This document shows positions 13,333-36,200 of a stretch of DNA of 50,035 nt, piece by piece. The DNA comes from Zygnema cylindricum (taxonomy: Eukaryota; Streptophyta; Zygnematophyceae; Zygnematales; Zygnemataceae). The DNA is taken from positions 13,658 through 63,692 of the forward strand of contig JBBHKE010002142.1 in the NCBI GenBank assembly GCA_037447655.1, in the 5' to 3' direction. Under the pieces are notes generated by a model. That model made no database searches and was not told where the DNA came from. It saw nothing but the letters and a program-made list of their open reading frames with translations. Both the position numbers and the translations under genes were made by a program. Each line of letters starts with the position of its first letter. Within the stretch, counting starts at the first letter, position 1.

Positions 13333-16300
13333 TGTTATGGGCCTTTCATCAAGAATTCCCATATTCAATGGCCAGAAGTATGCATACTAGGAGGCGATGG
13401 TTGAATCCACATTTGAAACTGGTGACTTATTGAAAGTTTTGGATGGTACTTTAGATGAAGCAGATCCGAGCTGGGTGAAGAAAAACTCATTGGCGCGAAA
13501 CAATTTGATTCTGTGCATCTCGGAGAATTTGGTTATGTCTCGTCTCAAAATGAAGAAAGCAAAGGAAATCTGGGAATCACTAAAAACTGCGTTTGAGAAA
13601 TCTAATGTCCAGGAGGAACTTCTAGTGGCTGGACAAATCTGGGATTATAAATACTCAGGGGGGAGTATGGTGGAGTATTGTGATAACTTTCGTGCTCTTA
13701 TTGATGCACATTCTTCTGCTGGTGGCTCATTTCCTGAGTTCCAGCAGGCGGCTTTACTTGTTAGAGGACTCCCTAGTACTATGAAAGGAGTGCCTGTCCA
13801 GCTAAAAACTCATGATAAGTCTAGCTGGTCATTTCAGTTAGCATACAATCTGATATTAGAAGAAGAGGCAACTACTAAAATACTTCATGGAGAGAGAAAG
13901 GTAGAAGCTTTAAACACAGATTTTGACAGGAAAACGTTGCTAAATCAGAACAAGAATCAGGATAGAAATCAGAATCTGAATCAATACAATAATAGGCCAA
14001 ATAGACAGTATACTACTTGCTTTTACTGCTCTGAAAAGGGACATGGTTACAGGTATTGTTCGAAGCTGAAAAAGGCAAATGAAACAGGATTATATCGTCC
14101 AGGCTGGCAACAGAGCTCATATCATAAGGGATTTTCTGGGAGCTCTTCTCGGGGAACTGCTCCCTTCTCAGGTTCTACAACCAAAGAAGATGATCCCTTG
14201 TCTTATGCTGAAGGAGAAGAAGCAGAATTATTCGCAATGGCGGCAGCTATGGAAGGTCAACGGGATACAAGATGGATCATGGATACCGGAGCTTCGGCAC
14301 ACATGAGTTGGAACAAGTCTAGTTTTTCCAACCTCAAGGCGACAACTCCCAGAAACATCTACTATGCCTGTGGCATGTGTGTGCAAAATTCGGCACAGGG
14401 TGATGTATCTTTAATGGTAGATGTGGGGGGAAAGTGTGTTAAAAGAACTCTCCACAATGTGTTATATGTACCAGATTTCAAAAAGAATCTATTTTCTACG
14501 TCCTTGGTAGAAAGCAAAGGCTTTGATGTAATCCTCAAAGGAGGAAGACAGGTTGTTAGTAAGCTAGGTAAAGTTGCAGTAACAGGAACTAGAGATGCAA
14601 GCAAGATGTATAGGATGGATATGGCTGAATACAAAGAAAATGATGTTCTCTATTCCATTGTATCATCTGTTAATGAGTTATGGCATAAGAGATTGGGTCA
14701 TGTTCATTATGATAGCTTACAAAAGATGGTAAATTCAAGAAAGATTGAGGGTGTTTCTCTTACTTCTCAACCTGTAAAATCATGTGATGGATGCTCACTT
14801 GGAAAGATCCACATATTACCTTTTCCCCAGCAATCTGCTCACAGATCGGACAAAGTTCTACAACTTATCCACTCGGATGTTCTTGGTCCATCACAAGTTC
14901 CATCAGCTGGAGGTGTCCAATATATGCTTACATTCACAGATGACTACTCAAGGTTCACAAAAGTCTACTTCATGCAGTACAAGAGTGAAGTGTTTACACA
15001 CTTCAAGCACTACAAGGCATGGGCAGAAAAACTGCATGGAGTTCCAATCTTGGCGCTAAGGTCGGACAACAGGGGAGAATATACTTCAAAAGAGTTCGAG
15101 CAATACCTCCTCCAAGAAGGTATCAGTCATAATCTGACAGTTCCGTACACACCGGAACAGAATGGTGTATCTGAAAGACTAAATAGAACTGTAACAGAAA
15201 GCGCTAGATCTATGCTTGCAGACAAAGGTTTGGATTTGAAATTCTGGGCTGAAGCTCTCAATTGTGCGGTTTATATTAAAAACAGAATTGCATCTAGATC
15301 GGTTAAGACTACACCATATGAACTTTGGACAGGCATGAAACCAGATGTCAGTCATTTTCGAGTATTTGGCAGCAACTGTTTTGTCTTAGACACATCGTAG
15401 ACAAGGTGGAAAATGGAAGCTAAGGGCTTACCTGGGATCTTTATGGGATATGATGACAATGCAAAGGGTTATAGGGTGTATGTCTTAGGGAAAAAGAAAG
15501 TTATTGTATGTAGAAATATACAGTTGAAGGATGAACAGGATTCGGTGGATCTGTTCACTAACACTGAAAGTGAACAAACAGGAAAAGTACAGGAGTATGT
15601 GATCTTTCAGCATACTCAACCTGTCTATTTTCAGTCACAGCCACCAGCTGCAACTACATCCCACCAGGTTCCTATGCAAGATGCAGCACCTGCTGCACAA
15701 CCAGATTCGGCACTTGCAACTACTCAGATAAGGACATCAAATCGCAGGTTGCCGACCATTTCAGAGTCAAAATTTCCGGGGGGAAGAAGAACCAGCAGTC
15801 GTCTGCAAGCAAGCTCACATTTTGCTTTCTCTGCAGCTACAACGGAACCGCTAACAATTCAGGAGGCCTTCTCATCACCGGAGAGAAATCACTGGATCGA
15901 GGCGGTAAACGATGAAATGAAGTCGATCATGGAAGCGCAGACATGGGAGCTGGTGGATCTTCCTCCGGGCAGAAAAGCCATCGGCAGCAAATGGGTATTC
16001 AAAGTAAAGCTCAACCCGGATAACACAATTGAAAGGTACAAGGCCAGACTTGTGGCCAAAGGTTACAATCAGAAAGAAGGTATTGATTTTGAGGAAACCT
16101 TCTCTCCAGTTGTCACATTTCCCACTGTCAGAATCTTACTAAGCTTGGCTGCTGTAGAAAACATGGAAGTCCACCAGATGGACGTTAAGACTGTATTCCT
16201 GCATGGAGAGTTAGAAGAAACCATTTATATAAAACAACCAGAGATGTATGCAGAGAAAGGGAAAGAAAACTTAGTTTGTAAACTAATAAAATCTTTGTAT

Positions 16301-17445: not shown

Positions 17446-18431
17446 TGTTGAATTTGAAAATCTTTACTCAGTAGATAGAGTTGTGAGGAGGAATTAAGGA
17501 CTTAGAATATTTTGGGAAATGAAAAACTGTAATACTTACCTCATATAGTGTTACAGTAATAAAAGATTAAGAGAGTGTACTGTACGGCCAGTTGGACACG
17601 CGTCGGTAGGAAAAGGGTGTTGCAGTTTTTACGGAGTAGCGCCGATGACCAGTTACATGTGTCGGGAGAATAGCGAGCGAATTGATGAAATCGGACGAAC
17701 GGAACACAAACCGCATACTAGGAAAGTATGGTACAGTCAACCAAGAAGGGCCGTTGATTGACATCGAATTAACGGACGTGATTCAGAAGGGACCACAAAT
17801 GACGAAGCACACTTGGACGGTATCACGTGCTTCGTACTACATGACAACAGTCAGCCAGATGCAATGGACAACAGCTGACTAAGCGCCAAGGACATTTATT
17901 GTACGGTCTTCTATTTGTAAATATCTAGAAACAAGGATTTGTAGTTTAGCTATTTTAAAATAGTGTCGCACTATTCAGAATTAGAGAAATCGCAAAATTA
18001 TGTTTTGGAAGTACTCATGGAATATTAAGTACAGTTTTAGTACTTTGTCGTAGCATAGGACAGTATTGTAGTACAGTCACTTAAATTAGTGTGACCAATG
18101 GATACTCACTGTGAGTATATAGTTTAGGACTTAGACAAATTGTGATCATCCAAGTCTTGGGATATTAATCTACTAAGGGAGTTTTTGTGAATCTGCACTG
18201 TTAATATCTTATGGATGATTGGATCAATTAAGTTGAATCTTTGTAGAGTGATTCTAAACTATTCTTACTACTGTTATGCAGAATTTGAGTCTGCATTGAT
18301 CAGGAAGTTGCATGTTGTCACATCTTGAAGTTGGTTGTTGAGTAGGGTGCTTGTTAGTTTCTGCTTTAAATGTCTACTTCCACTACTACTGCATATGGTT
18401 CTCCTCCTGCTACTGTGGTTGTAGAAAAACA
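17446..18431 (+). repeat. 3' LTR of copia element D
   Basis: 986 bp, TGTTGAATTT to GAAAAACA. It carries its own copy of the gag start (ATG 18,370) with protein-level similarity to the 5' copy. The frame hits TAA just past the LTR end in satellite DNA, as expected for a 3' LTR. Confidence 0.9.
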
Positions 18432-20459
18432 TGTTTAAAACACAAGTTTGTGTTTGCGCTTACAACAATATTGGTAATAACTCTTTATATTATTAATGCT
18501 CACAAAAATAATTAAAAAAAAACCCTAAACCATGTTTATAACACAAATTTGAGTTTGGGCTAACAAAGATATTTGTAACAATCAACGTTTATTATTCGCC
18601 ATCACAAAAAGAGGTAAATTAAACTTCGAACTATGTTTATAACACAAGTTTGTTTTTGTGCTACCAACAATAGTGGTAACAAACACTTTATATTGTTAAC
18701 GCTCAAAAAAATAGTTAAACAAAACCCTGAACCATGTTTCTACCACAAATTTGAGTTTGCGCTAACAAAAATAATTGTAAAAAATAACGTTTATTATTCG
18801 CGGTCACAAAAAGAAGTAATATAAACTCCAAACCATATTTATAACACAAGTTTATGTTTGCACCAACAAAAATAGTGGTAACAAACACTTTATATTGTTA
18901 ACACTCACAAAAATAGTTAAAAAAATCCTGAACCATATTTATAACACAAATTTGAGTTTGCGCTAACAAAGATATTTGTAACATACAAATATCATTGTTT
19001 GATGTCACAAATAGGTGTAAAATAAACTTCGAACAATATTTGTAACACAAGTTTGTGTTTGGGCTAACAACAATAGTGGTAATAAACACATTATATTGTA
19101 AACTCTCAAAAATATAGTTAAAAAATAACCTAAAACGTGTTTATAAAACAAATTTGAGTTTGCGCTAACAAAGATATTTGTAACAAACAACGTTTATTGT
19201 TCGTGATCACAAAAAGAGTTAAAATAAACTCTGAACTATATTTATAACACAAGTTTGTTTTTGCGCTAACAACAATAGTGATAACAAACACATTATATTG
19301 TTATCGCTCACAAAAATAGCTAAAACAAACCCTAAACCATGTTTCTTACACAATTTTGTGTTTGCGCCAACAAAGATATTTGTAATAAACAACGTTTATT
19401 ATTCCCGGTCACAAAAAGAAGTAAAATAAACTTCAAACTATGTCTATAAAACAAATTTTTGTTTTCGCTAACAACAATAGTGGTAAGAAATTCTTTATAT
19501 TCTTAATGTTCACAAAAATAGTTTTAAAAACCCCTAAACCATGTTTGTAACACAAATTTGAGTTTGTGTTAACAAAAATATTTGTATCAAACAACGTTTT
19601 TTGTTCACGGTCACTAAAAAAGGTAAAATAAACTTCGAACTATGTTTATAACACAAGTTTTATTTTGCCCTAACAACATTAATGATAACAAACAATTTAT
19701 ATTGTTATCGCTCACAAAAATAGTTATAAAAAACCCTAAAGCATGTTTTTAACACAAATTTGAGTTTGCGCTAACAAATATTTTTGTCACAAACAATGTT
19801 TTTTGTTCGTGGTCACAAAATGAGGTAAAATAAACTCCGAACTATGTTTGTCACACAAGTTTGTGTTTACGTTAACAACATTAGTGGTAAATAACACATT
19901 ATATTGTTAATGCTCACAAAAATAGTTAAAAAATCCCTAAATCATGTTTCTAACACAAATTTGAGTTTGCGCTAACAAAGATATTTGCAAAAAACAAAGT
20001 TTATTATTCACGGTGATAATGAGAAGTAAATAAACTTTCAACCATGCTTGTAACACAAGTTTGTGTTTGCGTTAAAAACAATAGTGGTAACAAACACATC
20101 CTATTGTTAACGCTCACAAAAATAGTTAATAAAAACCCTAAACCATGTTTCTAACACAAATTTGAGTTTGCGATAACAAAGATATGTTGTTCTACAACGA
20201 TTATTGTTTGTGGTCACAAATAGGTGTAAAATAAACTTCGAACAATATTTGTAACACAAGTTTGTGTTTGGGCTAACAACAATAGTGGTAACAAACACAT
20301 TATATTGTGAACACTAATAAAAAAAGTTAAAAAATAACCGAAAATGTGTTTACAACACAAATTTGAGTTTGTGCTAACAAAGATATTTGTAACAAACAAG
20401 GTTTATTGTTCGTGGTCACAAAAAGAGGTAAAATAAACTTCGAACCATGTTTAAAACAG
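18432..20459. repeat. Dimeric satellite array, right block
   Basis: About 2.0 kb of the same alternating 101-bp monomers, same orientation and phase as the left block, roughly 10 dimers. Copies look somewhat more diverged from one another than those to the left. The array stops abruptly at CCATGTTTAAAACA, where copia polymerase sequence begins. Confidence 0.92.
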
Positions 20460-21772
20460 AACTTCTGCAGCAATATTCGGACGGGTACAGTTCATCAAAT
20501 ATATTAAACTTTCCACTATTTGTGTGTAAGGTATCAATGTCATAGGATCAACCTCCTCAACCTCAAAAATTTCACTGACAATAACACCCGGTTTTGTACC
20601 TTCCCCCTCTAACTTATGCCAAAACTCCATTGGTGTTACACATCCTTTTGCCCCCCGCATTCCATATTCATCTAACATGTTTCCAATAGCTTTCTTTTGA
20701 GTCACTTTTTTTAATCTCTTTTTCCTGTCCTTCTCTACCTAGATACCAAAAATATATTTTGCCTCACCGAGGTCTTTCATCTCAAACCATGAGTTTAAAG
20801 CATTTTCAATTTTGTTAATTTCAACCATTGATTTGCTAACTAACACTAAATCATCTACATACACCGCTATGTACACTATTCATCCTCACCTTTTAAAACA
20901 TAGACAGAGTGATCAGAACTTATCTTTTGAAATCGTAAGCGAGTTAAGAATTCATCAAGTTTTAGATTCCATTGCCGAGGGGCATGTGTTAGGCCGTACA
21001 AAGATTTTAGCAGTTTGCATACTAAGTGCTCTTTTCGTGGTTCCGCATACATTTCAGGCTGCTTCATGTAAATGGTCTTCTCTAGTTCTGCATGAAAAAA
21101 GGTCGTCTTTACATCCATCTGATGTATTTCTATATCTTTTATAGCAGCTAGAGATAGCAAAATCTTAACTGTCGCAAATCTTACAACAGGAGAAAATGTT
21201 TTTTTAAAATCAATTCCTTCCTTTTGATTATACCCCTTTGCCAGAAGTCTAGCCTTATTTCGTTCAATGGTATAATCTAGATTTAACTTCACCTTGAATA
21301 CCCATTTGTTGCCGATCGCTTTTCGATCCGAAGGAAGGTCCACAAGCTCCCATGTCTGAGCCTCCATGATCGACTTCATTTCAAAGTTTGTCGCCTTGAT
21401 CTACTGATTCCCCTCTAGTGGTGAGAAGGCTTCTCGGATGGTCAGAGGCTCCTTTGAGGTTGCCAAGTAGGCGAAGTGAGAACTTGCTTGCAGGCGGCTA
21501 GTGGATATTTTTCCCCCGGAAATTTTGAGGCTGAAATTGTCAGATCCCGTGCATTGCGCTTGTTTCGCTGATTGCGATCCGTAGGCAGTGACTGTTGTTG
21601 GTCTGCTTCGAAAACAAACTTGTTTGGGAACCTGATTATGTTCCTACTCTTGTGTAACCAGTAGTGAATTTTGCATCTGTGGGACAATATTATAGATGCT
21701 ATCTTAAATGACATATTCTTGTACTTTTTGTTGCTGCTGGTGCTCTGTCAATTTCAATAAGTCTATCGATTC
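20460..21772 (-). pseudogene. Copia reverse transcriptase remnant (internal2)
   Basis: Minus-strand polymerase 3' part of the truncated second unit. It holds the integrase-RT linker, the RT opening (WELVDLP...KWVFKVKLN), the FSPVV and QMDVKTTF blocks, SLYGL...APRQWN (21,379-20,876), a damaged YVDD region near 20,850, and the RNase H opening up to MNCTRPNIAAE (20,705-20,460). It ends at the satellite junction, so RNase H is missing. Several frameshifts separate the blocks. It is highly similar to 26,760-28,040. Confidence 0.85.
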
Positions 21773-22939
21773 TGTTGATATTTGAGTATTTTCTAGGACT
21801 GTATTAGGATAGAAAAAGAGCTGAGGCGGTCTGCCTCTAACTCCCCTATCCAAGCCCCCACACTTGTTGTAGTCACTGAAGGCTGGATAGGGAGCTAGAG
21901 CCATGGCTGTCTAGGCTCTCTAGAGAAGACAGGGGGTGAATTAGGTAGACTTACCAAAAGTAAGCTGCCGAACGCAGGAATTGATCTTGGTACCTGCCGT
22001 CCGTCAATCGGCATTAGCCGTCAGCTCTAGCCGTTAAGTCTAGGAATGATATTACGATATAAAGGGTTTGATAAATATATAAATCTTTATATGTAGATAA
22101 ATCCGTTTAACGGCTTATAGATACTTTGTACATAGATACAGTTTGATTTAGTACGAAGTACGGTATGTGGACAGAACGGATACCGCGCATTTGTTTCGAT
22201 AGCGAAACGAAGCCCGCGCGTCGAATTTTAGCGGCTAGGATTATAGCCGGTTTTGATCGGAAGGCCGCGATAGGCGCCGCGATCACGGAAATGTACTTTT
22301 GGCGTTTTACGGTCTTTGCCACGTCAGATTACACGTGGCGTAATAACATTGGATTACGGGGATTCCAAGGATTATAGGAACTAATCCTGATTTGACACGT
22401 GTCGACATTTTGGCCATGTCGTACAATGGCCGTGCGGCACCTGTACTTTTCTGTACGATACATTAATTTGATTGGTGCCGTACTTTAGTAGATAGAGTTT
22501 TAGAGAGGGAATAGGACTTAGAAAATTTTCGGTAGGCAGCTGCCTCTCCCAAAGAGCACTCTGTATAAATGGCAAACTTTGGCCAGCCATATCTATCAAT
22601 TTACTTGACCATTTTCAGTGATTCTTTTTGCTGCGGACTCAGGGGAGTCCATGCTACACAGGGGTGTAGTCGGTCAGAGTTTTTGTCTGCCAGGGTGGCT
22701 GTATTTCTAAGGGAAAGTCAAAGTGGGTGAATGTGTCCAAATCTCATATTCTAACTTTGCATTCTGTGGTGGAACTGAGCACACAGGAAGTGTTATTTCA
22801 CAGGGGTGAATCTATATTGGGGTTTTGACTGTCAAGGGGTCAGTCATTTGGGTTTATATCAACTTGGAGTCGGCACTATCTAGATTAGCTTCTTTTGGAT
22901 CTGCATACTCTGAGGGCCAATGGAGGTCTCAGAGTTTCA
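21773..22939 (+). repeat. Solo LTR of the element-E family inside internal2
   Basis: A 1,167-bp plus-strand LTR, TGTTGATATT to GAGTTTCA, similar along its length to 41,287-42,462 and to the reverse complement of E's LTRs. It splits the integrase-RT region: flanks CGATTC and TTAGTTC join up as CGATTCTAGTTC in the undisturbed copy at 28,068. I cannot find a target duplication. Near its end it carries ATG (22,920) followed by Glu-Val-Ser-Glu-Phe codons, the LTR-borne gag start of this family. Confidence 0.85.
22564..22570 (+). promoter_or_regulatory. Candidate TATA box of the solo LTR
   Basis: TATAAAT follows a CTGCCTCTCCCAAAGAGCACT segment. The same CCTCTCTC...AGAGAGC-TATAAAT arrangement occurs in the related LTR at 36,631, suggesting the U3 core promoter with transcription starting shortly downstream. 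Confidence 0.4.
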
Positions 22940-25130
22940 TTAGTTCATCTTTGACAACGATGTTCCTTGCTACAATAATTTTTTGCCTATTAAAGACAAA
23001 GACTCTATAAGCTTTAGAGTGATCATCATATCCTAACAAAATGCCCTGCAATCCCTTAGGTTCCATTTTCCATCTACCATTAGACGTATCCAAAATAAAG
23101 CATTTACTTCTAAAGACTTTGAAATAACTTACATCCGGTTTTCTACCCATCCAGATCTCGTAGGGGGTGGTTTATAGCGATCTTAAACCTATAAATTTTT
23201 TGATATAAACTGCACAATTTAATGCTTTAGCCCAGAATTTCGGATCCAAGTCCTTGTGCGCAAACATGGACCTAAAGCTTTCTGTGATAGTTTTATTTAG
23301 TCTTTCTGTGACCTTATTTTGTTTTGGAGAGTATCGAATTGTTAGTTTGTGACTAATACCTTTGTTAAGTAAGAAATTTTCAAACTCTTTTGACGAATAT
23401 TCCCGCCATTGTACGATCAGAGCTCCATAATTGGCAAACCCTCTAGTTTCTCCGCCCACGCTTTGAAGTGTTGAAAATGAGTGAAGGCCTCACTCTTGTC
23501 TTTCATACAATAGACTTTAGTAAACCTCAAAAAATCAAGTGTAAACGTAACCATATATTTCATCCCCCCGGCAGATGGTACTTTTGTAGGGCCGAAAACA
23601 TCAAAATGAATGAATTATAAAAGTTTAGTAAATTATGTTCACACTCTTGAGAAAACTATAATCTGTGTATTTTTCCTAATGCACCGCCATCACACGTTTT
23701 AGGTGACTTATTTGACAGAGTGACTCTTTCTATTTTACTAGCATTGACCATCTTTTCTATACTATCATAGTTCACATGGCCTAATCTTTTATGCCACAAC
23801 TCATATGATGATAATGCACCGGAATACAAAACATCATTTTTTTTATTATTGGGCATATCCATTCGATACATTTTGCTGGCATCTCTAGTTACCGTAATTG
23901 CAATTTTTCCATTTTTGCTAACAACCTGCGTGCCATGTTTCAGATTGACCTTAAACCCTTTACTTTCTACCAAAGAAGTTGAAAACAATTTTTTCTTAAA
24001 ATCTAGTAATGGAAAACATTATGAAGAGTTCTCTCAACTACCTTACCTTTACATTAACTAGCAAATAGACATCCCATAGAGCCCGTGTTTGCACACTCAT
24101 TCCACATGCATAGTAGATATTTATCTCCTGCGATGATTTCAGATTTTTGAAAACTGCCTTGTTCCAGCTCTTGTGGGCCAACGCTCTCGTGTCCATTATT
24201 TATCCATTGTCTTTCGCGCCCTCCATTGCTGCCGCCAAAGCAAATTGATAATTATCCTCTTTGTCAAAGAGTGAAAGAGACTCGTCCTGATGAGATGAAG
24301 ACGCCGAGAATAGTGATTTTCCTTGTTGTGAAGATCCCGTGAAGCCTTGATGAAATTGGCTCTGTTGCCATCCAGGCCTGTACCGACCTATTTTATTAGT
24401 TTTCTTGAGCTTAGGACAGAATTTATATCCATGACCTTTTTCATTATGTCTATTTCCTCTTTGATTAAACAATTTAAACTGATTTTGATTCTGATTAAAC
24501 TGATTTCTTTGGTGATAAAATTGAGCTTTTTTGTCAAATTTTGTGCTAAATGCCTCTATTTGTTTTTCACCATTAAGAATTTTAGAATCTGCTTCCTCTT
24601 CTAATATCAAATTAATCACTAACTGTAGTGTCCAGCTAGCTTTAACTTTCTGTTTCAGCCTACCTGACGTTGCTTTCATAGTAGTAGGAAGACCTCTCAT
24701 TAGCAAAGCAGGCTGTTGAACCTGAGGAAAAGATCCACTTGCACAAACATAAGAATCTATTAGTATTCAAAATTTGTTACATTAGTTCTTCCTGAACATT
24801 AGCCTTTTCAAAATAATTGTTGAGAGATTTCCATATATCAATCGCCTTTTTCATTTTAATCCATGACATAGCCAATTCTTCTGAGATACATAATTTCAAA
24901 AGGGGCCGAGCTTGCGATTTTTTTTTTGACCAAGACAGATCCGTTTCTGCGAGTGAACCATCCAAAACATCCAAAAGGTTAACATTTTTGAAGTGTGTCT
25001 CCACCATATCTGCCCAATAAGCTTATTTTATCATCAAAAAGATAGAAATTCTTGTTGACAGGCCTATAGCCAGTTGTTCAACGACCACTAGAGCAGGTGG
25101 AGCAACAACAGTAGTAGTAGAAGTAGACAT
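22940..25130 (-). pseudogene. Copia gag-protease-integrase remnant (internal2)
   Basis: Minus strand, starting at the ATG in LTR2 (25,130-25,128; Met-Ser-Thr-Ser-Thr-Thr-Thr). Gag core at 25,007-24,777 and 24,706-24,200, with only a partial zinc knuckle (ends GHGYKFCPK). Integrase N-terminal zinc region (WHKRLGHVNYDS, then CDGGALGKIH) at 23,988-23,656, and the core end with its Glu region (TERLNKT) at 23,459-23,172, then 23,150-22,929. This copy keeps TGG at the gag position that is a stop in three other copies. A stop in the leader and several frameshifts inactivate it. Confidence 0.85.
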
Positions 25131-26018
25131 AATTCACTCAAAGAAGCTTACAAAGAATCCTATCAAACAGTTGTTTTCTACATCTCACCAAATATGTCAC
25201 ATAAATCTAAACTACTTCAAACTATACCACAATATAGAATATCACAAATACTGACAACTCCCAAAGTTTGAGCTCAATTGATCCAACATACACCAAGATA
25301 TGCTACTCAAACGTTTCACAAAAATATTTTGCAGTTTACACAGTCTGGAAGTCTCGATACATAAAATGTTCTTCGTCCTAAGTTTTGTACTCTGCACTTA
25401 GTTGTCCTACTTCATAGTGCTCTACCGCCGATACAAGTGTACCTAAGAGATACGTCCAAAAAACTAAAATTCCACTAAGGTCAAGTGCTCCTAATAACGC
25501 TAAAACTAATCTTTCAGTGTACAATCAATATTACTAAGAATCCTATACAGGTTATTTGTTCAAATACTTGTCGCCGGCTTAGTGACAGTTGTCTGAATAC
25601 GTCCATCCGGCTGTTGCAAAGCACTTTCAGCGAGTCACTTGTTTATCCTCTTATGAATCTTGTCTATTGACTTGATTCATATCAACCACAGCTGTGAAGT
25701 TCAATTCTTAATCATATACAAATATTTCTAGCTTCATCGCAGCTGCGTTGTCCTATACCAAATAAGCGGCAGCTGCGTTTTGTGTTGTTGCGTCGCAGTA
25801 GTATTTTCCGTTTAGATCGTATCAAAGATTACCGCTGTTGCCCTTGTCTCATCAGCGTCGCACCAGCGTTATTCCACTCTATATGTGACACGTACATGCT
25901 GGTGTTGGTACCAATCCAAAACTTGCACTGTGTTTTTTACGACGACGCATGTCCTTATAGATCTATATTTCCACCGTCTTTCTAATTTGTTGAGATTGAA
26001 AGCTTTCCAAAACCAACA
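25073..26018 (-). repeat. LTR2, shared LTR of the tandem copia pair
   Basis: 946 bp. On the minus strand it starts TGTTGGTTTTGG at 26,018 and ends next to the degenerate primer site TGGCTATAGGCC (25,061-25,072). It is the 3' LTR of internal1 and the 5' LTR of internal2. Its end encodes a 22-residue gag leader. Compared with LTR1 it has extra sequence near 25,610-25,670. Confidence 0.8.
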
Positions 26019-26178: not shown

Positions 26179-29100
26179 CTATTCACTTAATCCCACTGCG
26201 TCCCTACAATACTTCATCTTAGGAGCAGGAAGAGCTTTAGTGGGCATATCAACAATTTTTTTTGCATCTGGTAAATAACATAATTTAATCACTCTAGAGA
26301 ACATTTTTTCTTTTACAAAGTGTAATCTTACATCCATCTGCTTGCTTTTGAAGTGGTGACTCGGGTTAGAAGCAATGGCAATGGCAGCCTAGTTATCACA
26401 CCAGATCACTTGTGGACCAACTTGCATGTATCCCAATTCTTGCAACATGGATTTCACCCATAAGAGTTATTTGAGGGCCGAGCTCGCAACCATATATTCT
26501 GACTCCATCGTCGATTGTGCTGTGACCTTTTGAAATCTGCTCGAAAAGCAAGTCCCGTTTCCAATTTCCAGAACGAATCCTGTGGTGGATTTTTGGCTTG
26601 GCATGTCGCCATAGCTTGCATCACTCCACGTTTGCAGCTTCACTTCTCCTCCGCCTAGTGTGAGCTTGAGGTCTTTAGTTCTTGCCAAGTATCTTAAAAC
26701 TCTTCTTGCTGCATCACGGTCAGATTTCCTCGGATTCTCTAGACTTCTACTCAGTACTCCAATTGTTGACGCAATATCCGGACGAGTACAGTTTCTGAAA
26801 TATATTAAGCTTCCCACTATCTATCTGTTAGGTATCACTGTCATAGGATCATCCTCCCCAGACTCAAAAATTTCACTGACAATAACACCCGGTTCTGTTT
26901 CTTCCCCCTCTAACTTATGCCGAAACTCCATTGGTGTTACACATCGTTTTACCCCCCGCATTCTATATTCATATAACATGTTTCCAATAGCCTCATTTTG
27001 AGTCAATTTTAGTAATCTTCTTTTTCTATACCTCTCTACTTGGATTTCTAAAATATATTTTGCCTCACTGAGGTCTTTTGTTTCGAACCGTGAGTTTAAA
27101 GCAATTTAATTTTGTTAATTTCAACCATTAATTTGAACTAATAGTAAATCATCTACATACACCGCTATGTACGCTATTCATCCTCACATTTTAAAACATA
27201 GACAGAGTGATCAGAACTTATCTTTTAAAATCGTAGGCCAGTTAACAATTCATCAAGTTTTAGATTCCATTGCCTAGGGGCATGTTGTAGGCCGTACAAA
27301 GATTTTAGCAGTTTGCATACTAAGTGCTCTTTTCCTGGTTCTGCATACATTTCAGGCTGCTGCATGTAAATGGTCTCCTCTAGTTCTGCATGAAAAAAGG
27401 TCGTCTTTACATCCATCTGATGTATTTCTATATCTTTCATAGCAGCTAGAGATAGCAAAATCTTAACTGTCGCAAATCTTACAACAGGAGAAAATGTTTC
27501 TTTAAAATCAATTCCTTCCTTTTGATTATACCCCTTTGCTAGAAGTCTAGCCTTATTTCGTTCAATGGTATAATCTGGATTTAACTTCACCTTGAATACC
27601 CATTTGTTGCCGATCGCTTTTCGATCCGAAGGAAGGTCCACAAGCTCCCATGTCTGAGCCTCCATGATCGACTTCATTTCAAAGTTTGTCGCCTTGATCT
27701 ACTGATTCCCCTCTAGTGGTGAGAAGGCTTCTCGGATGGTCAGAGGCTCCCTTGAGGTTGCCAAGTAGGCGAAGTGAGAACTTGCTTGCAGGCGGCTAGT
27801 GGATCTTTTTCCCCCGGAAATTTTGAGGCTGAAATTGTCAGATCCCGTGCATTGCGCTTGTTTCGCTGATTGCGATCCGTAGGCAGTGACTGTTGTTGGT
27901 CTGCTTCGAAAACAAACTTGTTTGGGAACCTGATTATGTTCCGACTCTTGTGTAACCAGTAGTGAATTTCGCATCTGTGGGACAATATTATGGATGCTAT
28001 CTTAAATGACATATTCTTGTACTTTTTGTTGCAGCTGCTGCTCTGTCAATTTCAATAAGTCTATCGATTCTAGTTCATCTTTGACAACGATGTTCCTTTC
28101 TACAATAATTTTTTGCCTATTAAAGACAAAGACTCTATAAGCTTTAGAGTGATCATCATATCCTAACAAAATGCCCGGCAATCCCTTAGGTTCCATTTTC
28201 CATCTATCATTAGACGTATCCAAAATAAAGCATTTACTTCCAAAGACTTTGAAATGACTGACATCCGGTTTTCTACCCATCCAGATCTCGTAGGGAGTGG
28301 TTTCTACCGATCTTAAACTTATAATTTTTTTGATATAAACTGCACAATTTAATGCTTTAGCCCAGAATTTCGGATCCACGTCCTTATCCGCAAACATGGT
28401 CCTAGAGCTTTCTGTGATAGTTCTATTTAGTCTTTCTGTGACCCCATTTTGTTTGGGAGAGTATAACATAGATAGTTTTTTACTAATACCTTCCTTAAGT
28501 AATAAGTTTTCAACTCTTTTGACGAATATTCCCGCCATTGTCCGATCAGAGCTCCATAATTGTTGTTTCTCCACCCAAGCTTTGAAGTGTTGAAAATGAG
28601 TGAAGACCTCACTCTTGTCTTTCATAAAGTAGACTTTAGTAAACCTCAAAAAATCATCTATAAACGTAACCATATATTTTATCCCCTCGGCAGATGGTAC
28701 CTTTGCAGGGCCGAAAACATCAGAATGAATGAATTGCAAAATTTTAGCAAGATTTTGTTCAGACTCTTGAGGAAACGGTAATTTGTGTATTTTTCCTAAT
28801 GCACCGCCATCACACGTTTTAGGTGACTAATTTGAGAGAGTGACTCTTTCTATTTTACTTGCATTTACCATCTTTTTCATACTGTCATATTTCACATGCC
28901 CTAATCTTTTATGCCACAACTCATTTGATGATAATGCACCGGAATACAAAACATCATTTTTTTTATTATCGGGCATATCCATTCAATACATTTTACAGGC
29001 ATCTCTAGTTCTTGTAACTGCAATTTTTCCATTTTTGCTAACAACCTACCTGCCATGTTTCGGATTGACCTTAAACCCTTTACTTTTTACCAAAGAAGTT

Positions 29101-30302
29101 GAAAACATTTTTTTCTTAAAATCTGGTAATGGAGAACATTATGAAGGGTTCTCTCAACCGCCTTGCCTTCTACATCAACTAGCAAGGAGACATCACCTAG
29201 AGCCCGTGTTTGCACACTCATCCACATGCATAGTAGATATTTATCACCAATGTTGATTTCAGATTTTTGAAAACTGCCTTGTTCCAGCATATGTGGGCCA
29301 ACGCTCTCGTGTCCATTATCCATCCATTGTCTTTCGCGCCCTCTATTGCTGCCTCCATAGCAAATAGATCATCATACTTTTTGTCAAAGAGTGAAAGAGA
29401 CTCGTCCTGATGAGATGAAGACGACGAGAATAGTGCATTTCCTTGTTGTGAAGATCCCGTGAAGCGTTGAGAAATTGGCTTTGTTGCCATCTAGGCCTAT
29501 ACACACCTGTTTTATTAGCTTTCTTGAGCTTAGGACAGAATTTATATCCATGACCTTTTTCATTATGTCTATTTCCTCTTTGATTAAACAGTTTAACTGA
29601 TTCTGATTCTGATCAAACTGATTTCTCTGCTGATAAAACTGAGCTTTATTGTCAAATTCTTTGCTAAATGCCTCTATTTGTTTTTCACCATTAAGAATTT
29701 TAGAATCTGCTTTCTCATCTAATATCAAATTAATTGCTAACTGTAGTGTCCAACTAGCTTTAACTTTCTATTTCAGCCCATCAGACGTTGCTTTCATGAT
29801 AGTAGGAAGACCTCTCATTAGCAAAGCAGGTTGTTGAACCAGAGGAAAAGATCCACCTGCACAAGCATGAGAATCTACTAGTATTCCAAATTTGTTACAT
29901 TATTATGCCGTAATGCCACTCGTGTATTTGTAGTCCCAAATTTGTCCAGTTAAAAATAGTTTTTTCGAACATTAGCCTTTTCAAAATCATCTTTGAGAGA
30001 TTTCCATATATCGATCACCTTTTTCATTTTTATCTGTGACATAGCCAATTCTTCTGAAATACAGAATTTCAAAAGTGACCGAGCTTGCGAATTTTTTTTT
30101 GACCAAGACGGATCCATTTCCGCCAGTGAACCATCCAAAATATTCAAAAGGTTAACATTTCAAAGTGTGTCTCCACCATGTCTGCCGAATAAGCGTATTT
30201 TATCCATGAGAAGATATACATTCTTGTTGATTGGCCTATTTCCTGATGTTCAACGACCACTAGAGCAGGTGGAGCAGCAGCAATAGTAGTAGAAGTAGAC
30301 AT
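26179..30302 (-). pseudogene. Copia gag-pol polyprotein (internal1), degenerate
   Basis: Starts at the LTR1 ATG (30,302-30,300), ends at TAG 26,181-26,179. Order: gag (30,147-29,384), protease with WIMDTRA where WIMDTGA is expected (about 29,330), integrase zinc region (about 28,800-29,000), integrase core (28,739-28,002: HSDVFGP, NGVTERLNRT), RT (27,677-27,225), YVDD in another frame (about 27,145-27,165: VYVDDLL), RNase H (26,817-26,467: WSDASYGDMPS, TMESEYM) and C-terminal end to 26,179. The protease Gly-to-Arg change and multiple frameshifts imply no active enzyme. At the gag Trp that is a stop in other copies it has TCG (Ser). Confidence 0.9.
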
Positions 30303-31129
30303 AATTCACTCAAAGAAACTAACCAAGAATCCTATCAAACAATTTTTTCTACAGCTCACCAAATCTGTCACATAAAACTAAAATGCTTCAAACTATACCA
30401 TAGTATAGAGTAACTCAAATATTGACAACTCCCAAAGTTTCAGCTCAATTGATCCAACATACACCAAGATATGCAACTCAGAAGTTTCCCAAAAACATTC
30501 TGCAGTTTACACAATCTGGAAGTCTGGATACATAAAATGTTATACTTCCTAAGTTTTATACTCTACATTCAGTTGTCCTACTTCATAGTGTTGTTCCGCC
30601 GATACAAGTGTCCCTAAAAGATACGTCCAAAGAACTAAAATTCTACTAAGGTCAAGTGCTTCTAATCAAGCTAAAACTAATCTATCACTGTAGGATCAAT
30701 ATTACTAAGAATCCTATACAGGTGATTTGTTCAAATATTTTTCGCCGGCTTAGTGACACTTGTCTAGATACATCCGTTGGCTTGATTCATATCAAGCGCT
30801 GCAGCACATTTCAATTCTTAATCATATTCAAATATATGAAGCTTCGTCGCAGCTTCGTTTGTCCAATACCAAATTAGCCACAGCTGCGTTTTGTCTCGTT
30901 GCGTCGCAGCTGTGTTTGCCATACACTTTGTATCAAAGATATCCGCAGCCATGTTAATCCCATCTGCGTTGCAGCTGCGTTGTTCCACTCTATGTGTGAG
31001 AGGTACAACTGGTGTCGGTACCAATCCAAAACACGCACTGTGTTTCACACGACATCGCGTGTCCTTATAGATGTATATTTCCACTGTCCTTCTAATTTTG
31101 GTGAGACTGAAAGCTATCCAGAACCAGTA
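30245..31129 (-). repeat. LTR1, 5' LTR of the tandem copia pair
   Basis: About 885 bp, roughly 85-90% identical to LTR2 by eye, with its first TG eroded to TA. It begins exactly where the gypsy integrase reading breaks off. It contains several GCAGCTGCGTT/GCGTCGCAGCTG motifs at 30,845-30,985 that could be enhancer-like repeats in U3. The end encodes Met-Ser-Thr-Ser-Thr-Thr-Ile then Pro-Pro-Ala-Leu-Val-Val-Val-Glu. Confidence 0.8.
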
Positions 31130-31400
31130 GGAGAATTGTTGAATCATTAACAAGACAAAACGGTTTCCCCTACAACTGGTTGGAAGTGGTCCCAGCACAT
31201 CGAATGACCATCTGTAAAACATCCCTCGGATGGGGAGGGAGTAAAGTTTTGTTCCACCCTTTTTGTCAAAAGCAGCTTTCACCCGGTCACACTAAGGGCA
31301 CGTCTGCACCAAACCATTGACCTAGGCGCGATACCCATGCCACCAATAGGATCGTGTGATCAGTAAGGTGACCCGTTTCAGTTCAAATTGCCCGCATTGC
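31130..31400 (-). pseudogene. Gypsy integrase, N-terminal part, truncated
   Basis: On the minus strand: a zinc-binding half CPxCDRVKAAFDKKGG near 31,300-31,255 (a TAG sits between the Cys residues), then PIRGMFYRWSFDVLGPLP with the first catalytic Asp (about 31,220-31,190), then FVLLMIQQFS, after which the frame passes into LTR1. The second Asp and the Glu are lost. The block would have acted in DNA insertion. Confidence 0.85.
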
Positions 31401-31689
31401 AGGTAAAGACGAACAATAAGGGTTTCAAGAACTGCCGGAGGAGGAACCACTTTCCTCGTCCCATCTGCTCTTTTTCTGAGAAGAATGCCTCATTCCCATT
31501 CATACGCCGCCATCCGGGTATGAACACAAGATAAGTGAATTCCGGCTAGGTGGGGAAAAGGGGAACCTTTCTGGATGGACTCAAGGGAATCGAGGTCATT
31601 CAAATATTCTTGCGATTGGCTCCAATGGGAGCCCGCCCCTCCAACTCTGCAGCAAAAGTTGACAATTCCTTTTCAGCTCTAGGCAGCTA

Positions 31690-32200
31690 AATAAAGGCTA
31701 AGGAAGCCCAGAGAAATTCCAGGTTGAGCTTGGGGTCTTCATCGTGCCAAGCCTCAGTAGAGTTTGTGGTGGAAGGGTCTAGATTCCTGCTGAGTCTATT
31801 TGCATTCACATGGATCTGCCCGGCTCGGTGGATAATGTTGAAGTTGTGTTCTTGCAAGATGAAAACCGATCTGGCCAGCTTGCCGACCAACTTACTGTTC
31901 TCCATTATCCATTTGAGGGGCTCGTGATCCGTAATAAGGGTGAAGTGTACTCCATAGAGGTAAGGCATGAAATGTTGGATGGCCACACCGCAACGAGTAA
32001 TTCCCCATGGTAATGGTTGTAATTCCCCTCGGCTCTGTTATTACTCCGACTTGCGTAAGCCACTACATACTCAGCCCCTGCATCGTCCACTTGAGCGAAA
32101 ACTGCTCCCAATCCGAACCTGCTCTAATCAGTATAAAGGACGAAAGGCTGCTGGGTGATTGAGCATCCTGAGCACAAGATGGTTCTTCAGGGAATCTTTC
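31690..32200 (-). pseudogene. Gypsy RNase H domain
   Basis: Two overlapping minus-strand frames give AVFAQVDDAGAEYVVAYASR, NNRAEGNYNHYHGELLVAVW (32,111-31,905) and then YLYGVHFTLITDHEPLKW and the HRAGQIHVNANRLSRN tail (31,986-31,780). These are the conserved tether-RNase H blocks, with TDHEPLKW near the active-site Asp. One frameshift splits the domain near 31,960. Confidence 0.88.
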
Positions 32201-32289
32201 AAGAATTGATAAGCAGTTTGCTGTCTTCCGCCTACTGCCACTCCTGAACCTTTTGCAATAATTGATTCAATGGCTGGGCATGGCTACTA

Positions 32290-33070
32290 AATTCGAGAAT
32301 AAACCTCTGGTAATAGTTGGCCTGGCCCAGGAAAGTGCGAAGAGCAGAAATGTCTTGCGGGGGTGGAAGGACGTCTAAGGCTGCCACCTTTAACTATATG
32401 GGGACCCAGTGTCCCAAGAGTCACCTCATGACCCTTATAAATGGTTTTTTGCACCCTAAAAATGCCCTTCCCCGGATGACACTTCAACCTCGCTGCTTTG
32501 AGAGCTCAAAGAACGATCTGTATATGCTCCAAGTGTTCCTCAAATATCTTAGAGAAAATGATCACATCCTCGGTGTAACACCGTGCACAATTGATCCCCT
32601 AGAGGGCCTCATCTATTTCTTGTTGGAATTTGGCAGGTGCATTTTTGAGGCCAAATGGCATGTACAGCCATTCATACAACTTGGATCCAGCCCAAAAGCG
32701 GTCCTCTCTCGGTGCTTTGGCTCCATTGCAATCTGGTGGAATCCATTTTTCATACCAGACGTTGAGTAAATGTTGGCCCTAACAAGAGAGTCAAAAACAT
32801 CTCTTCCCGGGTGGACATTGGATAACGGTCGGAGACAATTGCCGCGTTGAGCATCCGATAGTCCCCACACATCTGGAATTTTACAATTTTCTCGGATGAG
32901 TCTTTATTTGGAGAAGCACTGTTGGAGAGGCAAACCCATGTAGCCTTATACTTTCTTGCACTAGCCCCGCGTCCACCAAAGTCTGCATCTTTGCGGTGAT
33001 GAACTTTTTCTCCTTCACACTGAAAGGGTACTGTTTCTACCAAACAGTCGCCGTCTCGTCCGTCTGGTCA
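32290..33070 (-). pseudogene. Gypsy reverse transcriptase
   Basis: Blocks seen on the minus strand: KFQMCGDYRMLNAAIVSDRYPM (33,043-32,800, finger region), NIYSTSGMKNGFHQIAMEP with RTAFG (32,780-32,690), then the catalytic Y-x-D-D position at 32,566-32,577, which reads Tyr-Thr-Glu-Asp, followed by VIIFSK, and KCHPGKGIFRVQKTIYKGHEV (32,487-32,400, thumb edge). The Asp-to-Glu change would abolish or cripple polymerisation. At least three frameshifts are present. Confidence 0.88.
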
Positions 33071-33419
33071 ATGCAAAAAGGGATCCCCTTAAAGATCCCT
33101 TCATTTGTGTCAGACCAAGAGAACACTTGCATGTTCTCCTCTAACAGCTTAGAGAGCCGGGCATTTTGCTATGGGTCTATCTGTTCCCCTAAAGTCCTGT
33201 CCATCTTCCCAGGTTCCACTACCGCCAATGCTTCCGGTGGGCGACCCCAAATGGAGATGACGAATTCCAATTCTACCTGTGGATTTGTCCCTTGCTCGGC
33301 TGCTAAAACGCTAACATTCCCTAAGCTCCCTTGTTTTGAGCCTCCGCTCCCCCACATTGAGGATTTCCTAGGTTTAGTGTGCTATCTGAATGTAATTTGC
33401 TTTATTCGTTTTTTCTTGC

Positions 33420-34640
33420 CTATCTCCCCGCTTGAAGCTGTAGAGTAGCTTTCATGGCCAACAACTGTTGAGCTTGAAGGTATGTTGCCTGTGACTTTGG
33501 AGACTGGAGGTTGGAGAATGCCAGAGAATGTTGCAGCACCCATGAAATTTTATTCAAATCCATACTTTGCCCAATTAAACTGCACCCATTTGAGGCCAAG
33601 ACCCCTGGTGCGGCTGTGGTTGCTGGTCGAAATCCCATTGCTTGTTCACGTTTCTCAATACTTGGTGTTGTCAACGTAGCGATCGTATTGTCAAAGATCA
33701 TTCTTGGTGCGCTTTGCCGATAAGCATGGCAGTTAGGGAAAGATACCAGGGTCTGTAGGGCCCTTCGTGGATTTCCGGGTTTGTTGTAACCAAAAAAGGG
33801 TGCTTAGTCGGCTATGGTCACAAGGGTGGCCATTCCCCTTGGTCTGAGAATTTGTTGAAATGTGATGTTGGGATCCGAAGCGTGTGTTTTCAACAGCTGT
33901 TCGAGGATGGGAAGGGGAGCCACGTTGGTCCAATAAGCCCAAACTTTGTGGGCTTTTGATTCGACCTGAGTTGCATTAAACACTATTGGAGTCCTTAGAA
34001 CCTTGCTCAGTTGGTTCCTAGGGTTGACTACCTATTTTTTTTTAACATCTGAGGGGTGAACATTTTCAAAGGCGTACCCCACTGGTGTGTCTTGGCGATC
34101 TTATAATCCTATTATCAGTCAAGTCATGTGAAAGAATGTTGTGCTACGTACATCTTGGTGTCCTCTGCCTTGTTGCGCTAATGAATACCCCTAGCAAGGC
34201 CATCAAACAATCACCAGATATACCCTTCCAAGCTTCTCCAACTGTGAATCCGTGATGTTGTCCACATTCTGGGGAAGCGTACACTGAGAGTAAGACATGG
34301 CTGACACCGAGAGTTGCTCTGGGTAAAGATGGTGTTACTGTTGCAATCAATACTCACTGACTGCACGGGCTTCTGGGTCAATCTGACTGCTGAGTACGTT
34401 TCTACTTAGTGTCCAACTATCAAGACGACTTTGAAGTTAGAACTAATGCCAGAAAATAGCGATAGAATCTGGAGTCCTGAGAGCGGGATTTCTAGTGACA
34501 CCACTTGTCGTTTGAAGTCCTTTCCTTTGTTGGGAACCATTGGAAGTTTTGACCGAATGAACTTTGCTATCCTTGCGGATATCGCGGCAAAGCCCATGTC
34601 CACTCCATGCCGAAGTGTGGCCATCTGTACCAATCTGTTC
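33420..34640 (-). pseudogene. C5-cytosine DNA methyltransferase domain inside the gypsy polyprotein
   Basis: Ordered C5-methyltransferase motifs on the minus strand between protease and RT. Motif I LSLFSGI at 34,465-34,445 (SAM binding; next residue Ser where Gly is usual). IDPEARA at 34,382-34,362 (motif II, acidic Asp). Motif IV Trp-Pro-Cys with catalytic Cys codon 34,196-34,194, preceded by VYLVI. ENV at 34,067-34,059 (motif VI Glu). KAHKVWAYWTN ending 33,924 (motif VIII region). EKREQAMGF at 33,653-33,630 and LIGQSMDLN at 33,578-33,552 (motifs IX/X). Everything from about 34,385 to 33,425 lies in one frame, broken only by stops (TGA 34,203-34,205, TAG 34,191-34,193 and a few more). Motif I lies in another frame, and a one-base loss near 34,385 explains this. 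TAA lies at 34,406-34,408. The enzyme would transfer methyl groups to cytosine C5. Retrotransposon-borne methyltransferases are known from charophytes and dinoflagellates. This copy is dead, but the architecture is clear. Confidence 0.85.
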
Positions 34641-34689
34641 TGAAACTCTCTTTCCCATCGCTTCGAAATAGGGAATTGCTAGTGGAATC

Positions 34690-35220
34690 AACAATATCGG
34701 TGGAGTCTTTGAACATCTCTGAAGGAGTTGATGCAGCGTACACGCAATAACATCCTGTCAGTGGAACGATTATTTTTCCCCGATTACATAAATCTAAGAG
34801 GGCCACCACTTTGGTGCCCTCGGGATCCTCCGAGTCTGAAACTGTAAATTGTTCTTTCCATATGCTCAACTCCATGTTCAACCTTGTCCATGTAGCCATA
34901 CCCAGATGAATTCCAAATTGCTTACCTTCCACGACGAGGAAGAGGAGCTGACTTTGTACGTGTTGGCCTACGTCATCCGCAGATTCGATTTCTATTGCTT
35001 TAATGATGAAATATACTGGTTGGCTCCCACTGCTGACCATACTTAAGCATATGTCACTTCGACTAATTTTTGGCCTGAGTTCCTCGGGCATTTTTTGTAT
35101 TGCTGAGGTTGTGATGAGGTTAGGGAGAGCTCGGGTATCCACCACTTTATCATAAAATCCGTCGTATCTATTAAGTTTAAAATTACCTGTCCAGGTAAGA
35201 ATAAGAGCCACCTACAAGGC
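34690..35220 (-). pseudogene. Gypsy retropepsin-like protease region
   Basis: The minus-strand frame from 35,211 contains VVDTRALPNLITTSAIQKM. The DTR (35,139-35,131) stands where the catalytic DTG/DSG of a retropepsin is expected, followed by the usual hydrophobic alpha-helical stretch. Further on, VVEGKQFGIHLGMATW and VSDSEDPEGTKVVALLDL continue without a motif I know, leading into the methyltransferase. Gly-to-Arg would inactivate the protease. Assignment rests on position and the DTx-ALPNLI pattern. Confidence 0.6.
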
Positions 35221-36200
35221 CTTATAATCTTAATCCGCCATCGAGGTTTGTGGTTCGCCGACATGAAGACTATTTTGGGTGGTTTTGCCAATGCGACCCT
35301 TTCCCTGCTGGTGTGAATCTATTACCCCAGTGCGTGATTGAGGATTTTTTTGGGAAAATTGTAGGAGGAAGCTAGCGTTTTGACGTGAGTCAGGGCGTAG
35401 AGCATCAGGTGTCGTACTTGCATAACTCTTGGTTTGGAGGAAGGAGGTTGGGCTTTAGACGCTGAAATGGGTGAGTCCTCGTCTTCCGATTCTCTTATTC
35501 CCCCTCCCCTACTTCCTCACTCTCTGCGTCAGAGTTCCCTGTTGGAGGTGTAATTAGCGGATTTGTTGATGGTCTTTCAGCCAAGTATCAGTTGAACCAT
35601 TCCTGATCGGTTTCAGTGGTCGAAGCATCCTTTTTTGGCTATGGTTTCTTCTAATCCTCGCAACCGAGAGGAAGTTTTTTGGAGCACGAGGAGGCAGATG
35701 GGTCGGTTTTAGACCCAACCCATTGTCACTATTCAACACGACAGCTCGTAGTGTGAAAGATAAAGGTCCAACGGCCTTGCGGCTATGGTCTTTTGATTCC
35801 ATCAGCTGTTTGTCCTTTCTCTGTGAGGACGTGGTAGAGTAGAGTTGCATGTGATTGTCCCCTACTGCGACGTTCCTGGCTCCGGACAGCAATGTCCGAA
35901 CATGATGAGGCGTTACAGGCTTTATATCCGTACCCATGAGGTCATTATCATCTCCACCCACCGTGGTCTACTGTTCCACCTCCGTTAGCTTTTGTAGCAG
36001 TTCTTGTTTCTGTTTCTACAATTTTTGAGCAGGCGTCAAATGTCGAGGTGTGTGGGCATTTGATCCCCAAGGGCAGAGCAGCCAATTCTTCCTCCATGGC
36101 AGCCAATCTGGGACTGAGAGTCTAAATCGGATCCACTAATCTATCAATATTACTTTGGTGGCACAGAAACGTCGAACCTGGACCTAAGGTAATAAATGAA
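35221..36200 (-). pseudogene. Gag-like 5' part of the gypsy element, poorly resolved
   Basis: Upstream of the protease the minus strand has one longer frame (35,961-35,554) rich in Arg, Lys, Ser and Pro, with no zinc knuckle I can identify. Its position before protease and basic composition fit a decayed gag. A host sequence is possible. Confidence 0.35.

Follow-up and report, generated by a model that had tools for sequence, protein, structure and literature searches.

Why would a retrotransposon carry a cytosine methyltransferase? Cytosine methylation is a main weapon of plants against transposons, which makes it paradoxical for a transposon to keep a selected methyltransferase of its own. 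The question is raised by a 50,035-nucleotide stretch of Zygnema cylindricum DNA (contig JBBHKE010002142.1, positions 13,658 to 63,692; hereafter the window, meaning the whole stretch), taken from a 352.8-Mb assembly of 2,689 contigs. An original prediction made from the letters alone had placed a C5-cytosine methyltransferase between the protease and reverse transcriptase (RT) of a Gypsy element, at 33420..34640. The enclosing segment 36106-31131 (minus strand) is a single decayed Ty3/Gypsy copy with a Dnmt3-type methyltransferase between protease and RT. It belongs to a large Ty3/Gypsy family of the same genome, whose better-preserved Pol reads protease - Dnmt3-type methyltransferase - RT - RNase H - integrase - PHD finger. 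The parts of the window copy, located largely with the open relatives L006 and L039, are as follows.

31131..36106, minus strand: decayed Ty3/Gypsy copy (Pol and upstream), co-linear with L039:978-5996 by blastn.
34684..35492, minus strand: protease region with D-T-R-A replacing D-T-G-A and an FGIHLGMATW block; tblastn with the L039 protease, two pieces at 71% and 77%.
35211-34873, minus strand: protease core, 81% to the L006 protease.
34679..34681, minus strand: conserved UAG, then CAATTCCC, at the protease/methyltransferase junction; same trinucleotide in relatives.
34379..34498, minus strand: methyltransferase motif I piece (LSLFSGI), in a frame different from the remainder; tblastn 68% to L006, E 1e-10.
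33495..34385, minus strand: methyltransferase motifs II, IV, VI and VIII to X in one stop-broken frame; tblastn 72% to L006, E 4.5e-136, with PDB DNMT3 matches.
33420..33803, minus strand: longest stop-free piece of the methyltransferase, EKREQAMGF ... GQSMDLN, 127 amino acids.
31603..33351, minus strand: RT and RNase H in broken frames; tblastn 54% to L006; PF00078, PF17917 and PF17919 above cut-off in stop-masked frames.
31121..31666, minus strand: N-terminal part of the integrase (H2C2 and start of the core), cut by Copia; tblastn 68%; PF17921.

The Gypsy Pol order protease - RT - RNase H - integrase is present in the window, both by profiles and by a single blastn match to L039 of the same genome (36106-31131, 79.6% identity over 5,033 aligned positions). 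The RT, RNase H and integrase-H2C2 profiles exceed their cut-offs immediately downstream of the methyltransferase on the same strand. The window protease block alone gave no profile match, and the L006 protease reaches E 2.1e-4 and 22.3 bits against PF13650, under the cut-off of 24.3. The copy is dead, carrying stops, frameshifts and a Copia insertion: Copia similarity starts near 31,126, and the integrase is interrupted near 31,130, where Gypsy similarity stops. The original prediction was thus right on the placement of the enzyme, given the domain order and the co-linear alignment, and on the mutated state of the copy. Its interval 33420..34640 does hold the methyltransferase, but the element copy is longer (36106-31131), with its integrase cut by Copia.

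The methyltransferase motifs listed in the original prediction do lie on the minus strand (34498-33420) in canonical order, motif I in a separate frame and motifs II-X in a common frame with stops. Three-frame local alignment of 34800-33301 (minus strand) to the human DNMT3A catalytic domain scored 80, compared with a maximum of 51 among 300 codon shuffles (mean 35.2, standard deviation 4.0). Over the whole window (130 tile-and-strand combinations), a score of 80 was reached by the two tiles that cover the segment, and the next best was 45; shuffles and tiles together rule out chance motifs. The segment scored 58 against M.HhaI, 45 against reversed DNMT3A and 38 against reversed M.HhaI. A single unjoined frame with stops masked gave 27 PDB matches (E up to 10), of which 26 were DNMT3A or 3B (best E 0.0037), while two frames read together gave 39, comprising 29 to DNMT3A/B/C (best 2.6e-6) followed by 10 to HhaI at E >=0.66. 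On the window segment, PF00145 stayed under its cut-off (E 0.065, 13.1 bits; joined frames E 0.035, 14 bits), as did TIGR00675 (E 2.9e-4). The profile check of 33.4-34.7 kb proposed with the original prediction therefore fell short for PF00145, and the identification stands on the above-chance frame-tolerant alignment, the PDB matches and the match to the open relative.

Is the arrangement a property of the element or an accident of one copy? Plants encode cytosine methyltransferases among their own genes, and a host Dnmt3-like gene might have been captured once into one copy, or the element might lie beside a host pseudogene. The genome does contain a chromomethylase-like host exon (L007), and the window copy by itself would be insufficient against such a reading. 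The assembly, however, holds many relatives. Its PF00145 search gave 123 scored matches among 782 candidates, those listed all being above cut-off and several inside very long open frames, and a search with the L006 methyltransferase gave at least 109 matches, a lower bound with 107 of 1,964 candidate places scored. The 30 best-scoring places of the latter search (L009-L038) are close relatives, 78-100% identical in the methyltransferase. Within 1.5 kb on the methyltransferase strand, 28 of them have the protease upstream (not L030 or L035) and 27 the RT downstream (not L023, L029 or L036), with both in 25; L037 is cut by a contig end. Twelve more diverged loci, picked by hand (L041-L052), include 10 with protease, 10 with RT and 9 with both (L044 lacks the protease, L049 the RT and L050 either). 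All these loci were selected by methyltransferase similarity and so show the position of the domain, not the frequency of methyltransferase-free sister elements.

In L006, L039 and L040 the methyltransferase shares one open frame with the RT. The 1,525-amino-acid frame of L039 comprises methyltransferase, RT, RNase H, integrase and a weak PHD finger. L040 represents a second family (family B; its methyltransferase is 42% identical to that of L006, family A) and its single frame of 2,395 amino acids, which extends from zinc knuckles as far as a strong PHD finger, matches profiles of protease (weakly), RT, RNase H and integrase. Two identical 300-nucleotide direct repeats, 9,467 bases apart and touching the stretch start, suggest that L040 is a young insertion; terminal direct repeats were not found in L039, and none were assigned to the window copy. 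The expectation that better-preserved relatives exist in the genome was thereby borne out. The repeated layout and the single 5-kb alignment crossing the junctions rule out, for the family, a host-gene fragment beside a retroelement. With the same domain in the same place in most fetched relatives and in one open frame with the RT in three, a one-off capture or a neighbouring pseudogene is extremely improbable, and the presence of a methyltransferase within the Pol of this Gypsy family is practically certain. The L007 exon (1498-1800) is host-gene-like and contains CGGPPCQGASGHNRFR ... MENVTD, a motif that we take to resemble chromomethylase; the host is thus probably a green plant with non-CG machinery of its own.

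What kind of enzyme is this, and does it still work? The methyltransferase is under purifying selection, with a ratio of nonsynonymous to synonymous substitution rates (dN/dS) of ~0.12. Its predicted structure has a DNMT3 fold, and the relatives, like the window copy with its stops, have the canonical I-IV-VI-VIII-X order with the catalytic Cys and ENV. When relatives were ranked against PDB, one query gave DNMT3A at 8e-13, HhaI at 3e-5 and DRM2 at 5.8e-4, and another DNMT3A at 1.4e-10 and HhaI at 0.003. Judged by these rankings, the enzyme is nearer DNMT3 than other structurally known cytosine methyltransferases; the same ranking and the I-to-X motif order rule out a DRM-type enzyme. Identity to human DNMT3A and DNMT3B is ~20-28%, and the element enzyme differs from these in being part of a polyprotein, in having GW(P/E)CQ rather than GSPCN at motif IV, and in lacking any PWWP or ADD profile match in L039 or L040.

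The function of the domain is very probably under selection, and conserved copies probably encode an active methyltransferase. Alternatively, the domain may have lost its enzymatic role and serve Pol as a spacer that is structural or binds DNA. Many of 179 aligned proteins depart from the usual motif IV (37 have WECQ, 21 lack the stretch and a few have no Cys), Chlamydomonas P0174 has AHWQA at this position, the genomic copies bear no special CpG footprint, and the Klebsormidium nitens domain showed no activity in yeast, a result that its authors call inconclusive (PMC5890265). Yet WPCQ is more frequent than any other form, with 87 of 179, FPCQ accounts for another 17, and motif VI reads ENV in 82 and EHV in 25. 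Cys109 is invariant in a 45-row alignment (L048 lies outside the alignment), and it is the Cys of motif IV that acts catalytically in the C5-methyltransferase class. On this balance a non-enzymatic spacer is unlikely, and selected enzymatic activity is preferred. WECQ, a Pro to Glu change that keeps the Cys, is found in L040, L056 and many database polyproteins.

How would such an enzyme be made? The protease frame of family A closes with a UAG, and CAA UUC CC and the methyltransferase-RT frame follow directly in phase. TAGCAATTCCC is exact in 28 of the 30 loci L009-L038; L017 and L032 keep the TAG with the following codon changed. TAG CAA TTC occurs in 11 of L041-L052 (absent from L050) and in the distant L003, where, as in L041-L052, the third base of the proline codon that follows is T, G or A, or the codon itself differs. 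Over the 42 loci of both sets, TAG is kept in 41 and TAG CAA TTC in 39. Family B has no stop at the junction. The plant-virus Type I leaky stop is UAG CAA UYA, and a rice Gypsy element has been named as a readthrough candidate (PMC2754532). The family A junction UAG CAA UUC misses this consensus, five of the six following bases agreeing and the last being C, not A; judged on sequence, it resembles the Type I leaky stop without matching it. The junction suggests readthrough of the family A UAG.

On the mechanism that we propose, the ribosome in family A would occasionally pass UAG CAA UUC, and the methyltransferase and all downstream Pol would be made. The position of the methyltransferase behind the UAG would thus render the enzyme scarce and co-made with RT and integrase. 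The enzyme would then most likely methylate de novo either the newly made DNA of the element or its insertion site, while the PHD finger would help the integrase to read chromatin. That the element's own complementary DNA (cDNA) is the main substrate is conceivable, although somewhat doubtful. Another candidate target is the host: the enzyme might mark host chromatin or the insertion site, or damp the element so that the host survives. Chromatin targeting of the enzyme could come from the PHD reader encoded in the same polyprotein, and host-benefit and insertion-site effects are discussed in PMC5890265; the present data do not separate this from cDNA methylation, and an enzyme encoded past the UAG, together with RT and integrase, is at least as compatible with particle-borne action, leaving action on the host rather unlikely. 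The whole account, in which the window holds a dead copy of a Gypsy family with a readthrough-made, selected Dnmt3-type enzyme that methylates element DNA or the insertion site and a PHD finger that aids the integrase, is favoured with modest confidence as the best explanation.

A footprint of self-methylation was sought and rejected, CpG depletion being no stronger than in the neighbouring Copia elements (CpG observed/expected 0.59 in the window copy, 0.64 in L039, 0.89 in the L040 frame, as against Copia values of 0.49-0.67). This footprint does not set the element apart in the way that might favour the suggestion of the original prediction that the enzyme could act on its own copies or on host DNA. 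Over 2,241 compared columns, changes from C to T or from G to A affected 12 of 74 CG sites, 60 of 614 CH sites and 56 of 428 C or G of unclear context, a small CG transition excess on few sites.

The PHD finger adds a possible chromatin reader. The two Pol frames read at length (1,525 and 2,395 amino acids) both terminate in one, and the Cys-His pattern occurs in 13 of 19 fetched tails (family B 6 of 6; family A and near kin 7 of 13). Family B matches PF00628 at 1.5e-9 and 38.1 bits and PHF12 in PDB at 5e-17; family A reaches 2.4e-4 and 21.5 bits, under the cut-off of 24. A chromatin-reading function is proposed from this resemblance. Chromoviruses are Gypsy elements with a chromodomain at the integrase C-terminus; the present families likewise have a presumptive reader there, but it is a PHD finger, and a methyltransferase has been added.

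The precedent named in the original prediction, retroelement methyltransferases in charophytes and dinoflagellates, is real. KnitGypsy-Dnmt3 of K. nitens is a methyltransferase-bearing Gypsy already described, and SymbioDIRS-Dnmt3 is a dinoflagellate counterpart (PMC5890265); K. nitens proteins are among our Pol matches. As in KnitGypsy-Dnmt3 as described there, the present family is a presumed long terminal repeat (LTR) Gypsy with an unrearranged Dnmt3-type domain in Pol, intronless copies and purifying selection (PMC5890265), and K. nitens P0147, like family A, has the methyltransferase before the RT. What differs is the genome, with at least 109 matches to one family, and the PHD finger and UAG junction reported for it; the main text of PMC5890265 contains neither 'PHD' nor 'protease'. 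A figure legend of that report gives KnitGypsy-Dnmt3 a DIRS-like repeat structure, and its text proposes independent acquisition in the K. nitens lineage; relatives of the present element are found also in Closterium, Marchantia and chlorophytes. SymbioDIRS-Dnmt3 and SymbioLINE-Dnmt of dinoflagellates likewise have a methyltransferase inside a retrotransposon coding region, but these are DIRS elements (tyrosine recombinase) and long interspersed nuclear elements, unlike the present Gypsy with a DDE integrase; SymbioDIRS forms have two different domain orders, and two dinoflagellate DIRS domains methylated CG (PMC5890265). A later paper, citing the 2018 report, mentions streptophyte and dinoflagellate DNMT3 inside LTR Copia and DIRS elements (PMC12344493). 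No prior report of PHD fingers in Gypsy integrases or of DNMT in chlorophyte Gypsy elements was found in listings of the open-licence literature, which leaves room for reports elsewhere in print. Relative to the literature that could be read, what is new is the expansion in one more host, the PHD finger together with the UAG junction, the existence of two families differing in motif IV, a second (chlorophyte) position and the range in Marchantia and Closterium.

How far, then, does this lineage extend, and how often was the enzyme captured? A methyltransferase profile search of proteins gave 116 matches, mostly metagenomic and including Closterium sp. NIES-53/54, and a search with the 1,525-amino-acid Pol gave 171. 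Position counts cover the 120 Pol matches listed among these and our two polyproteins. Our own methyltransferase profile was positive in 61 of the 120, including K. nitens P0147, Closterium, Marchantia P0191 and P0198, Haematococcus, Chromochloris P0178, Pseudoscourfieldia P0217 and Chlamydomonas P0174 (motif IV decayed). Among the 63 carriers, 59 have an RT region (not P0203, P0206, P0207 or P0217), and in these 59 the methyltransferase precedes the RT in 26 and follows RT-RNase H in 33; every row named Klebsormidium, Closterium or Marchantia (13) is of the former kind, and every one named Chlamydomonas, Haematococcus or Chromochloris (7) of the latter. Location of the after-RT kind upstream of the integrase was read directly in P0174 only: this Chlamydomonas reinhardtii protein (CHLRE_09g398141v5), a PHD-bearing Gypsy polyprotein, has a decayed methyltransferase at residues 1219-1537 between RNase H and integrase. 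Neither P0174 nor Haematococcus P0188 has a PF00145 mark in the database listing, and such green-algal cases may have been overlooked.

A midpoint-rooted RT tree, built by a quick method from 99 rows with near-full RT, places all 46 methyltransferase rows inside one 77-row part (27 after-RT, 19 before-RT, 30 with upstream too short to tell and P0173 without methyltransferase). The after-RT kind and P0173 form one group of 28 (Shimodaira-Hasegawa-like approximate likelihood ratio test, SH-aLRT, 99), with the before-RT kind scattered around it. In the methyltransferase tree, which leaves out domains under 230 residues, 60 retroelement rows split from 8 outgroups (SH-aLRT 99), the after-RT kind is one group (98) containing the four RT-less rows and one fragment, and K. 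nitens P0147 groups with family A (95). Distances in the two trees correlate over 42 rows (r 0.497; none of 2,000 permutations as high), at r 0.864 for 17 before-RT rows (0 of 2,000) and r 0.207 for 25 after-RT rows (164 of 2,000).

The simplest reading of these trees would be one capture followed by one move within Pol; two captures from near relatives may also account for them, since the tree holds a single host-type DNMT3 (human, on a long branch). P0180, with a PHD mark in the database listing and no methyltransferase by profile, lies next to the root on the methyltransferase-free side of the RT tree (support 88), which hints weakly that the PHD finger preceded the methyltransferase. Extended to its widest form, the one-capture reading would have a single ancient green-plant Gypsy lineage equipped with a writer (Dnmt3-type) and a reader (PHD). 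The enzyme would have been taken up once by a PHD-bearing Gypsy, before the streptophyte/chlorophyte split or with later transfer, and moved once in Pol (before the RT in streptophytes, after RNase H in chlorophytes), writing on the element's own new DNA and reading chromatin for a landing site. This picture is put forward tentatively and is more doubtful than likely.

A bacterial or phage origin was rejected: the sole IMG/VR match, on the phage-like contig L078, is to an ordinary cytosine methylase and amounts to 41% identity over ~50 residues. A prokaryote genome scan found no relative of the element methyltransferase, both this and the IMG/VR scan being insensitive, and a viral scan with the 127-amino-acid window piece gave nothing. 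The L078 cytosine methylase, unrelated to the element, lies near a Dam-like adenine methylase frame.

Elsewhere in the window, two similar Copia copies, 80-94% alike in places, are arranged head to tail at 20470-26015 and ~26183-31126, the second interrupting the Gypsy integrase. An AT-rich satellite array of ~101/202-base units occupies 3684-12345 (42.6 copies of 202 bases) and 18430-20458, and between its two parts is a Copia element with terminal repeats of ~990 bases (12346-13336 and 17446-18435, 91.6% alike). A plasmid search of the DNA, Rfam and a tRNA scan gave nothing.

The role of retroelement methyltransferases was left open in the 2018 report (PMC5890265). The Zygnema family enlarges a rare and poorly understood class of selfish DNA, in a genome that supplies many well-preserved copies and at least two families to compare. 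The UAG junction offers a testable account of enzyme amount, the PHD finger would tie the methyltransferase to chromatin, and the split in position between named streptophytes and chlorophytes makes the question of one or many captures testable. If true, a single-capture writer and reader lineage would replace the published separate capture in the Klebsormidium lineage.
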